A DNA stretch of 58,420 nt, taken from contig WELB01000118.1 of the NCBI GenBank assembly GCA_009602725.1, positions 4,248 to 62,667 of the forward strand. The letters run 5' to 3'. The notes under the pieces are model-generated. The model searched no databases. It saw nothing but the letters and a program-made list of their open reading frames with translations, and was not told the origin of the DNA. This document shows, piece by piece, positions 28,733 through 36,114 of this stretch. Every line of letters begins with the position of its first letter. The first letter of the stretch is position 1. The position numbers were made by a program, and so were the translations under genes. This DNA comes from Spirogloea muscicola. Taxonomy: Eukaryota > Streptophyta > Zygnematophyceae > Spirogloeales > Spirogloeaceae.

Positions 28733-31700
28733 CTATAAGAGTCGCATCAACGCGGCCTCAATCGTTATGCCCGGCCCGAAGCCAAGGGCGAGGCCCCATT
28801 GCTGCTGAGTGCTGGGATCGCCGCTCAACTTTCTCGACTCCTGCCAGATCTTGTCAAGTACGAAGAGCACAGAGGCACTTGACATGTTGCCAAACTCGTC
28901 CAAAACCGCCCTGCATGGTTGCAAGCGGGGTGATGCAGCGTGCTTGAGATAATATGAAGCCTCTGACATACAATCTCTGCTAAAGGTGGATGCTAAGAGT
29001 GGGTGATGCTAGTGCACCTGCTGGGGCGTAGCTGGTCGCCTTTTAGCTGGCAGCGGCGCTCAATTGCGTCCAGGATGGCGGGGCCACCGGGGTGCACAGC
29101 CCAGAAGATGTCATCGAAGTGCACGCCCACGCCTCCGAGCAGCTCCGCACAGTGGTCCCGGGTTGGCTGCCCGAGCAGCAACGGCACCTGCGGGAGCACT
29201 CACGTACATGAGTTGTCTTCAAGAACGGCTAGTAACAACTGCGTCTAAGAAACGTTGAAAACAACTATCAAACTGCAAGGAGATGTTACAGACTAGCAGA
29301 CCTGAGGTGAATGCAACTTGAGGCTTCTATTCTCGACTGTAGCAATCTAATATGCTCTTGCGTACCTCCTTGGATAGGTGCACGAGGAGGCCTGAGTCAT
29401 TGAGCTCGCCCTTGATGCAGTCCTCCGTGTCTGGCAGAAATAGCTCCGAAGTCTGCGTGATCTCAAACATGGGCTTTGCCTCGCCAGCCTAGCATGCACA
29501 CAGACGCAAATGCAGCAGCATCAGAAGGTAAAGGCGGCATTTCAACAGCAGGTCAAGTGCCTGCTTAGATCATGATCAGCAGTGGCAATCACAATCAGAG
29601 CAAAGGATGTAGGCAAGCCATCGTTTTGGAAAATCCAGCCATTTGCCATCCTTTAATTGGCAGGATATCGAAAGATCAAGGTTTAGGTTTGCTTTGTAAT
29701 GTGCTGTACAGTTGCAGCTGGAGTTGCCTGTCAAGAAATCACGTCCACTCACCTTGGCTCCAACTCCAATGACTACTGCAGCTGCCCCATCTCCAAAGAG
29801 AGCTGCTGTGACGATGTTGTCTGGCACTTCGTCATCAGGAGACTTCAGCAGATCAATCAATCGCAAGTCTCAGTACCACAGGTTAGACGATGACGTGCGA
29901 CACAATAGCAAGGCTGCGTTCGAGCACGGTGTGAAGTGGTCAGGTTGACCCAATCTCCCTGTACCTGAAATGTCAGGCTGTTGAGCTCGCAGCAGACAAA
30001 CAGGACCCGGGCACCCGCATTGTTCTCGGCAAGGTCCTTGCTGATCCGCAGGCCTGTGACGCCAGCGTAGCAGCCCAACATGTGCAGCATGACCCTGTTG
30101 ATGTTGGGCCTCAGCCCAAGCAGCTTGGCAAGCTTCAAGTCCGTGCCAGGAATGTGCACGCCGCTGACCGTCGCAACTACCAGGTGGGTGATGCCGCTCG
30201 CTTCGCCTCCCCACTCTGCACAGGCGACGATGATTACTCATATGCCAGATGCCGGACTTGAGTGGTGCACAAGAGGTGAAGTTCAGTGCAGCTCATGAGC
30301 TCTTTGTTAATATGTGGGCGTCTTGGAGGAGCAATCTTGAAAACTGCCTAGCTGGATGCAATGAGGAGCCAGCAGCAACTCAAGGGACGGGGTGTCTGAC
30401 TGGCTTATGTAATAACGTGCTCATACCTCTCATAGCTTTGACACAAGCTCTGTGAGCAAGTTTGGGACCCTCTGTGGCTAAGATATCCTGTGTAGACTTG
30501 GAGGGCAAGTTCAGCAAGCAATAGGTTATCCATAAAATGTGAGCTTGCTAGAGGGCATCTCGAGTTGCAAGGTCGACGTCTTTATGGAGAGCAGATGACC
30601 AGTGGAGGACGTGCCAGACCTGACGTGCTTTTAGGGATGGGGCACCGAAGACACGGATCTGTGGTGAAGCATCGACCATCGATTTCGTCATCAGCATCTG
30701 CCTCCTACTAATGGCAGAGGCATCACCTGCAACAGATGGCACCTGGAGCCATTTAGTACGGGGAAATTTTTTCACAGTGACACAGTAATGCTTGTAACTG
30801 CGAGCTTCAACGAGTTGCAAAACATACGGCAAGTTACTATGAAGGCCACAAAGTAACAGATAATAGTACCACACACGATAATATGGACGCAATGGGTGTC
30901 AATTCAGCGGAACCCTTACAGATCCTTTTATACTTCTCAAGTACGTTCTCATCCTGGCAGCCCGTCAAGTCGGAATAGTATTTGCTGGCTGCCTCTCGCA
31001 GGATCGCCTGATCAGGGTTGGCCGTTCCAATGGACAATATGCATGCTAGACCTTGTTGTTTGCATGTATGCACAGAGTCCGTGGAGTGCAGAGTCTCCCA
31101 ACGATGGCCGCGCGCATTGACGTCCCCAGCTGATGGGAGGCGTGAAGAGGCGCTTGATGTCCTCGACGGAGTGATAGCAGAGGAATTGTCAAGCTTGCGG
31201 AGATCACTGATCTGCATATGAAATCTCATAACTTTTTGATGTGAATTCAGGCCACTTTCATGTCACAAGCACGTTAGACAAGTCAGGCGGAGCAATCTGA
31301 AACGTGCTGCTTGTAAATGGAACATAAGCTGGCAGAGGCATGGTTAGATGCCGCATACTCACCTTCACTTGAGAAAGCCTTCCAAGAGCCATCGGGTGGC
31401 CCGTGCGTTCAGTGATGATTTCAGCGATCTCTGCGGCTGCCAGAGATGAAAGCCCCAGGGAGCCGAGCGTGTCGTTTGCCCTCACTGTTGTCTCTGGAGC
31501 CACACCGGCAGCAGCAAGGACCACTTTCTCCAGAGAAAGCACTGGGCGTGGTGCCTCGCTCTCCATGTTTGACTGCCACAAGGCACTCGTGAATGTTACA
31601 AGTGATCAACCATGGCAAACTGTTGGTCAGCAATTGCACAAAACACAAGTACTGTACTTGTGGTTACTTGAGTGATGTCCTCTTCATTGGTCATAAGCTG

Positions 31701-34700: not shown

Positions 34701-36114
34701 ATGCCCTGCCAGCTGATCACAACGCCCTTTGGCTCGCCCGTGGAGCCGCTCGTGTACTGGAGGAATGCGTATCCGCCCACTCGATGCTCCTTCAGCCCCT
34801 TTGCTGCTCCTACAACCGGGGACCTCTGCAAGCACCACCATGTACACCCAATGGGCTTGCAAGCTGAGTGTAATTTTTTAACATCAAGGTATATCACCAA
34901 TGCTAAGTCGAAGTTGCTTTTTGTGCTGAGACTGTAGGAAGCAACATAGGAGTTGTCATCTCGTCCTCAAGAGCGTGATGAAAGTATTATAGCTGGGGAT
35001 GAGCAACTGAGTGCATCTACAGACAAGGTACAAGGCCTACCTTTACGTTATCGGTTGATCTCCACTTCTTGCCGGGCCAACGCTGGACAAGCCTTGTGAG
35101 CTTGCGCAGACGACTATAAGCATGGGATGTCAGTATCAGCGAAGCGCCAGCATCTTTTACAACCCGTCGAAGTTTGGGAATATCTACAGATAGGCTGGAG
35201 GGATTTGGGGGGTAGACCGGCACAGCAATAATTCCTGCAAATTGTGCAACGACATGGTGCTAGTTGGGTAAGTAAGTACATCAACACCACTTCGCCCGTG
35301 CATATCAACGTGCAACATTCTCATTCTTGCTATAGAAGTGTTGACATGAAGAGCAGCTTGAAAGAGCCAGGCAAGTGTACATGGAGATTTGTTAGGTGCA
35401 TCAGTATTGCAAAGTCGCTATCTGAACAGCTCAGGGCCCACTCAGTACCAGCGTGTCAGCATTGGGAAGCGTAATGAGCCGAAAGGAGGTCGACGAGGAA
35501 CAGAAATATGCCAGGTGCAGTGATATCGCATGCAGGCTGCCTACGCCAGGCTACTCAGAAGATGGCAATTGGGTGAGATGTGATATCTGACCGGATCTTA
35601 GGCAGGCAAGGAAAGCCTCCAGAAACTCCAGGCCTGGGGGATAGACCAATACCACCCTGTCGCCCGGCTTTGCGCCCCATCTTGCCAGCAGGGCGTGACT
35701 GATGTCCAAGGAGGTGGTCTGCACATGAAGTAGATTAATCCATACAGACAGGTCTTTTTGAAACAAGAAGGAGCTAGAAGGAGGTCAAGTGCACTACAAT
35801 GAGCATCAGAGTCAACCATGAGGTGGACTTGCAGCTCTTGCCTGACCATGTGGAGACAGCCCCTGCTACCAAGGACACGCTTGGAGCAAGCGTGTCTGAC
35901 TAAGCTGATATGGTACATCCCGGTAGCATATCATCACCTGCAATTGGGCGTACGTGAGTGCCCTGACGGCATCGCCGTTGTCGTCCACCCAGAGGCACGC
36001 CACCTTGGCGGGCGCGGCAGCTACATTGCGGTCGAAGAGGTGGAGGAAGTCCACGGGCTCGTCGCACACGGCGTCGTTGTCCGTCGGCTGCGCTGCGCCG
36101 TCTCGGCAGGCCAT
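28733..36114 (-). CDS. Fatty acyl-AMP ligase / acyl carrier protein / type III polyketide synthase fusion
   Basis: About 22 exons, joined in phase without a stop, give roughly 1080 residues. Residues 1-594 are a [33 protein letters not shown] (P-loop), [58 protein letters not shown] and KTTSGKIRR with the catalytic Lys. An exon at about 31578-31370 encodes an ACP with [18 protein letters not shown]; the Ser-Ser-Leu replaces the usual Asp-Ser-Leu but the phosphopantetheine Ser is present. A 34-residue Ser-rich linker leads into the [52 protein letters not shown] (nucleophile Cys), [23 protein letters not shown] (His), [10 protein letters not shown] (Asn), GFGPGIT. The triad is intact. By family knowledge the FAAL loads a fatty acid on the ACP and the PKS extends it with malonyl-CoA; an alkylresorcinol or alkylpyrone product is inference. 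Divergent from a P450. Confidence 0.92.

Follow-up and report, generated by a model that had tools for sequence, protein, structure and literature searches.

Does the minus strand of this contig encode a single protein in which a fatty acyl-AMP ligase (FAAL), an acyl carrier protein (ACP) and a type III polyketide synthase (PKS) are joined, and what would such a chain make? The locus occupies positions 28733 to 36114 of the window, that is, the whole stretch of 58,420 nucleotides analysed here, taken from contig WELB01000118.1 (assembly GCA_009602725.1) of Spirogloea muscicola, a zygnematophyte and more exactly a streptophyte alga than simply the “green alga” of an earlier, sequence-only reading. 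Running from 36114 to 28733, the spliced minus-strand frame comprises 22 exons and 3279 bases including the stop, and encodes 1092 amino acids with no internal stop, with the FAAL-like ligase followed by the carrier and then by the type III PKS. That the three modules form one fused gene is well supported at the level of sequence, and it is likely that this gene specifies a three-module enzyme in which the carrier receives its acyl group from the FAAL of the same chain and the PKS builds this group into a polyketide lipid.

The FAAL module (amino acids 1–599, 31801..36114, on the minus strand like every feature of the gene) is delimited by the spliced frame, Pfam and matches to solved structures, and spans exons 1–7 (36114-35938, 35718-35592, 35234-35041, 34825-34674, 34413-34321, 34060-33914, and 33725-33605) and exons 8–13 (33425-33321, 33137-33027, 32855-32685, 32530-32382, 32270-32105, and 31884-31801). 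Exon 13 (31801..31884), bounded by conserved splice sites, carries the A10 motif KTTSGKIRR with Lys579 at 31863-31861, and is separated from the carrier by intron 13 (31573..31800), the donor of which runs from 31800. Exon 14 (31363..31572), supported by profile and predicted structure, encodes carrier helices I–III with Ser642 at 31446-31444, and exon 15 (30920..31211) encodes helix IV (ISDLRKLD, from 31211), a Ser/Thr-rich linker, and the PKS N-terminus (from 31049), placing the end of the carrier and the start of the PKS on one exon. The type III PKS module (28733..31211), recognised by Pfam, its catalytic residues and CHS-like structures, extends over exons 15–18 (31211-30920, 30726-30620, 30487-30427, and 30215-29965) and exons 19–22 (29842-29753, 29488-29366, 29187-29018, and 28910-28733).

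The spliced frame and the public gene span bear out the start at 36114, the stop at 28733, the strand, the three modules and the two phase-0 junctions given by the sequence-only reading, and the catalytic residues it named are present as A10 Lys579, carrier Ser642, and PKS Cys871, His1009, and Asn1042. Its placement of the end of the last FAAL exon near 31690 is wrong, with the exon ending at 31801 and position 31690 lying within intron 13, near the stop codon that would end the reading frame were this intron retained. The ACP exon does end in phase 0 as proposed, but probably not at GRLSQ, the more likely end being GRLSQVK at 31363, two residues on and followed by the donor GTGAGT. The public gene SM000118S25573 (s118:32980-40361) has matching ends once the window offset of 4247 is applied, with its 971-residue protein differing from the spliced model in lacking exons 10 and 13, ending exon 15 early, reading exon 16 in another frame, and skipping exon 17. 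Exon 13, and with it the A10 lysine, is absent from all three public homeolog proteins (P0001-P0003), and the public models of this gene thus miss catalytic exons.

The ligase itself is closer to FAALs than to acyl-CoA (coenzyme A) ligases, as judged by structure matches and NCBIfam. Pfam AMP-binding covers amino acids 27–425 at 222 bits and a DIP2-like AMP domain covers 475–596, with the adenylation core motif QYTSGSTG present from amino acid 189 in addition to the A10 lysine. FAALs lead the solved-structure matches, with 7r7e at 333 bits whereas no CoA ligase listed exceeds 97, and the NCBIfam fatty-acid--AMP ligase profile ranks first at 353 bits, a score below its strict cut-off of 775. 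FAAL-like proteins exist in plants according to an extract of PMC8460268.

The carrier is recovered by a profile of seven lineage carriers from which the fusion was excluded (six zygnematophyte proteins and the metagenome protein P0060), with a score of 38.1 bits compared with 8.2 for the best of 2000 shuffles. Its helix IV aligns with LTVGDLRAID, VTIGHLRAVD, and LTIGHLRQLD in five of the seven lineage FAAL-ACPs, the annotated P0057 and P0059 ending before it. An AlphaFold2 model of P0001, from which some exons are absent (mean predicted local distance difference test score 72.6, predicted template modelling score 0.51, block means of 61 for residues 521-530 and 83-94 for 531-590), places carrier-like helices at 528-535, 557-571, 577-580, and 585-592, and lineage alignment and predicted structure together describe four helices with the Ser opening helix II. 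The carrier motif GL[ST]S is found in nine of the ten nearest FAALs outside the fusion (P0057, P0059-P0063, P0065, P0066, and P0069), with the sequence of the tenth, P0064, breaking off just ahead of the Ser; these counts come from the sequences themselves because the rows of the lineage alignment were cut at a pattern containing this residue. Matches to the phosphopantetheinyl transferase family PF01648 occur at four places in the genome.

The PKS module has the features of a CHS-like type III enzyme, with Pfam CHS N at amino acids 717–933 (252.9 bits), CHS C at 946–1090 (141.9 bits), a catalytic triad of Cys871 (30072-30070), His1009 (29094-29092), and Asn1042 (28888-28886), a conserved GFGPG motif, and CHS-like enzymes as its best solved structures. 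At E 1e-3, Pfam finds seven families over the whole fusion, comprising only adenylation, CHS and KASIII/FAE1-like ones, and no type I fatty acid synthase (FAS) or PKS domains ahead of the type III PKS of the kind that mark a Steely protein. By motif alignment, the positions that we take to be Phe215, Phe265, and Lys62 of CHS are occupied by Phe, Val, and Ala respectively. Residues at the Phe265 position vary among the bacterial enzymes that PMC8086630 examined, and Val there is therefore on its own no sign of acyl-ACP use. Type III PKS matches fall on five contigs of the genome, three of them being the fusions, which agrees with the listing by Suh et al. 2024 (PMC11316218) of three starred fusion PKSs and two ORS enzymes in Spirogloea; Table 1 of that paper classes the fusions as non-ORS and non-ASCL. 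The other two type III PKS contigs, C271 and C274, are both listed at 148522 bases, an agreement that may be chance or may reflect a duplicate.

In the proposed mechanism, the FAAL would adenylate a fatty acid and pass the acyl group from acyl-AMP to a pantetheine arm on Ser642, and the carrier would hand it to Cys871 of the PKS with no free acyl-CoA. The PKS would then add malonyl-CoA units and cyclise the elongated chain, giving a lipid of the resorcinol, resorcylic acid, or alpha-pyrone type. As read from its parts, the conversion of a fatty acid to an alkylresorcinol or alkylpyrone is probably a sound proposal, and a role in the lipid coat or wall of Spirogloea would be a guess. Whilst the single fused gene proposed by the sequence-only reading is upheld by its presence in three homeologs, its conserved splice sites, signs of purifying selection and the shared exon 15, its description as “self-sufficient” goes too far, with a phosphopantetheinyl transferase, ATP, and malonyl-CoA still predicted to be needed as partners.

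The observations that weigh against a three-module enzyme concern one of the homeologs, intron 13, the ligase insertion and carrier, and the distribution of the fusion. A genome triplication in Spirogloea muscicola is described in an extract of PMC7994812, and our search of the genome (153 Mb, 471 contigs) places the two homeologs of the window copy on C397 (L008) and C2. Exon 15 of the C397 copy is one base shorter, shifting the PKS frame, and its carrier reads LGLSSP, a Leu-to-Pro change beside the carrier Ser, making this copy possibly a pseudogene in progress or an assembly error. The fusion as a whole could in that light be a decaying or non-functional leftover of the triplication, however this is very unlikely, with the window and C2 copies fully open to the stop over 1092 and 1091 amino acids and a whole-gene ratio of nonsynonymous to synonymous substitution rates (Ka/Ks) over 1091 codons of 0.146 (window-C2) and 0.18 (window-C397). 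When the model is transferred to C397 and C2, 21/21 introns are GT-AG in each of the three copies. By module, Ka/Ks for the same two comparisons (window-C397 and window-C2) is 0.181 and 0.121 for the FAAL and 0.095 and 0.121 for PKS exons 16–22, with the carrier exon looser (0.356 and 0.26) and exon 15 (0.384 and 0.409) more so. No nonsynonymous changes separate the homeologs in the 20 codons of exon 17.

Intron 13 raises the further possibility that two tandem genes are present, a FAAL ending within this intron and a carrier-PKS gene beginning at the ATG of exon 14 (31566), with the fusion being an annotation join. This ATG, the third codon of exon 14 (31566-31564), is in frame in all three copies and could serve as an internal start, and intron 13 surpasses the rest of the 21 introns in conservation, with identities of 0.902 (window-C397) and 0.915 (window-C2) compared with 0.696-0.894 for the other 20, 9-10 points above the mean intron identity between homeologs of 81%. 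Together these observations keep a two-transcript reading alive, and the conservation resembles what an internal promoter might give. In contrast, both splice sites of intron 13 persist in all three copies with unchanged phase, and the 26 codons past exon 13 show 0 synonymous and 5 nonsynonymous changes between the window and C2 copies, and 2 and 7 between the window and C397 copies, compared with 2 synonymous and 0 nonsynonymous changes in the 28 codons of exon 13 itself in both comparisons. Furthermore, the read-through frame of the window copy ends differently from that of the C397 and C2 copies because of a 2-base gap, and FAAL and carrier stand in one annotated chain in nine of the ten nearest FAALs. 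A pair of tandem genes is accordingly improbable, and the retention of intron 13 as coding sequence is rejected by the same pattern of synonymous and nonsynonymous change.

A third alternative keeps one protein, and holds that the ligase makes acyl-CoA too or instead, that the carrier is a relic, and that the fusion merely tethers ligase and PKS, with plain CoA-bound starters that the PKS may use. The stretch from YGLAE to EIWV, which contains the FAAL-specific insertion, measures 63-73 residues in 6/6 zygnematophyte-type rows (two of these being homeologs, and the alignment including no CoA ligase row) compared with 82-102 in 6/6 others, with the fusion at 73, and such a short insertion means that CoA might be accepted. 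Additionally, the carrier reaches only 19.2 and 20.4 bits where the Pfam PP-binding cut-off is 20.8, the residue preceding its Ser is Ser or Thr and not Asp, and none of the five places found by a genome-wide PP-binding search is a fusion carrier, two of them being the FAAL-ACP paralogs P0057 (C15) and P0059 (C182). A profile of ten carriers from outside the lineage gives 10.9 bits against 9.6 for a shuffle, and when set beside the strong score of the lineage profile this suggests that the carrier is recognisable through its own lineage, and not through carriers at large. The fold search also ranks first an engineered 4CL::STS (stilbene synthase) fusion, PDB 3tsy, which like the Spirogloea chain joins a ligase to a type III PKS, but is man-made and built with a CoA ligase; FAALs follow from rank 2 on, and its whole-chain TM-scores are only 0.29 and 0.34, low values that stem from differing domain arrangements.

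Despite these points, a mere tether appears unlikely. The carrier Ser is retained in 3/3 fusion copies, just as it is in the related FAALs apart from the one cut short, the carrier exon evolves at a Ka/Ks of 0.26-0.36, the solved-structure scores favour FAALs over CoA ligases by the values given above, and the available portion of PMC8460268 attributes the rejection of CoA less to the insertion than to a blocked (proline-lined) pocket and a FAAL-specific helix. Intron 8 contains an in-frame stretch resembling the missing piece of the insertion, but indels interrupt it in both homeologs and it was rejected.

As to distribution, no streptophyte fusion beyond Spirogloea is present among the 38 proteins listed from the PKS search or the 120 listed of 7974 in the FAAL search. 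The same domain order does occur in metagenome chains. Of 23 proteins listed, 12 (P0032, the query, P0039-P0042, and P0044-P0050) combine AMP-binding and CHS in one chain as the Spirogloea fusion does, and 7/12 also have PP-binding, with P0032 matching this family weakly (E 0.0021); unlike the fusion, these chains have long linkers and stand apart in both trees. In prokaryotic genomes, where at least 554 stretches were confirmed, the best 80 loci, many of them short contigs, contain a PKS open reading frame in 80/80 cases, one matching a FAAL profile verified on known FAALs in 0/80 (E 1e-3), and a fusion in 0/80, and 48 pattern matches in viral contigs include no relatives.

The PKS tree (38 rows, comprising 35 of 56 listed proteins, the window and C2 models, and a partial ORS, with no named ASCL row) recovers the fusion, Closterium PKSs and land plants as one group (97/97), and 13/13 metagenome rows, including P0043, a piece with no listed AMP-binding domain, fall in another clade (100/98). 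The FAAL tree (39 rows with midpoint root, from 36 picked proteins and the three homeologs) places the fusion in a zygnematophyte FAAL-ACP clade of 11 rows (100/100) with 8 of the 10 nearest FAALs. Eight of the 12 metagenome chains are included in this tree (P0040, P0041, P0046, and P0048 being left out) and lie outside the fusion clade, seven of them together at 100/99 and all eight at only 86/79, P0050 being a long branch. A single origin for all fusions is rejected by approximately unbiased tests on the PKS tree (p 9.9e-5) and the FAAL tree (p 0.0012), which makes two or more separate assemblies of the chain probable. The best tree unites the Spirogloea fusion with the Closterium PKSs, with weak support (76/67), and in Closterium FAAL-ACP and PKS are annotated as separate proteins. 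It is likely that a FAAL-ACP gene joined a PKS gene in or near the Spirogloea line, with a separate joining elsewhere, and the parts would have been a zygnematophyte FAAL-ACP gene and a streptophyte type III PKS gene.

The closest known relatives of these parts are separate proteins. The zygnematophyte FAAL-ACPs of Spirogloea (P0057, P0059), Mesotaenium (P0062), and Closterium (P0061, P0063-P0066, P0069), together with the metagenome protein P0060, share with the fusion a FAAL followed by a C-terminal carrier, but have no type III PKS domain listed. The Closterium type III PKSs P0017-P0019 and P0021 are the nearest to the fusion PKS by tree path, with 40-47% identity, and P0017-P0019 share its Val at the CHS Phe265 position, whereas all four have no AMP-binding or PP-binding domain listed. 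P0062 continues after its FAAL-ACP into a flavin-monooxygenase-like stretch (PF00743), which may reflect a further natural FAAL-ACP fusion or neighbouring genes annotated as one.

The usual description of type III PKSs is of enzymes that stand alone and draw on CoA-bound substrates. In Dictyostelium Steely, the type III PKS is fused behind an ACP-bearing, acyl-delivering module, the upstream part being a type I FAS/PKS and not a FAAL, and a FAAL acting with a type III PKS in Myxococcus has reportedly been described by Hayashi et al. 2011. In the portion of PMC8086630 available, type III PKS starters are proposed or shown to come from ACP for the bacterial HidC, CylI, and germicidin synthase, and mksC joins AMP-binding to ACP with a type III PKS nearby. 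These acyl-ACP-fed systems differ from the fusion in that the PKS is a separate protein, with CylI being fed by type I PKS modules. The view of Steely as the known exception was thus too narrow, in light of the bacterial acyl-ACP-fed PKSs as far as these extracts describe them, the reported Myxococcus pairing, the starred Spirogloea fusions, and the 12 metagenome chains.

The fused state of the Spirogloea PKSs is marked in PMC11316218 by a table asterisk, with the partner unnamed. Searches of one open-licence library, which did not extend to subscription papers or preprints, turned up no description of the FAAL-ACP-PKS order or of its origin on more than one occasion, no mention of the missing A10 exon, and no test of function. 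The fuller proposition, that this is a natural single-chain FAAL-ACP-type III PKS taking a fatty acid to a polyketide in cis without free acyl-CoA, made from zygnematophyte-lineage parts and independently assembled in at least one other lineage, has in our judgement an even chance of holding. The land-plant spore-wall (sporopollenin) route employs an acyl-CoA synthetase and an alkylpyrone synthase, and the fusion, if it works as proposed, would be a CoA-free counterpart of this pair and a testable alternative to the acyl-CoA route toward polyketide wall lipids. With Zygnematophyceae being the sister group of land plants (PMC8133574, in part), a chain with its own activator and carrier in this group, apparently built twice, would point to repeated selection for channelled fatty-acid starters. 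Such a chain may also serve as a small, naturally occurring starting design for the production of resorcinolic or pyrone lipids from free fatty acids.

Head to head with the fusion, at 37272-40245 on the plus strand of the window, lies a cytochrome P450 gene in pieces, with LUT5 (132 bits), CYP46 (125), and CYP3A (109) as its best solved relatives; the collinear stretch is also present in C2. Window and C2 are collinear over 6-53104, with piecewise identities of 79.6-88.6%, and the adjacency of fusion and P450 therefore adds no signal for a biosynthetic cluster, which is not claimed here. Downstream of the fusion, at 27225-28478 on the minus strand, a peptide reads like what we take to be the start of an organelle-type glycyl-tRNA synthetase.

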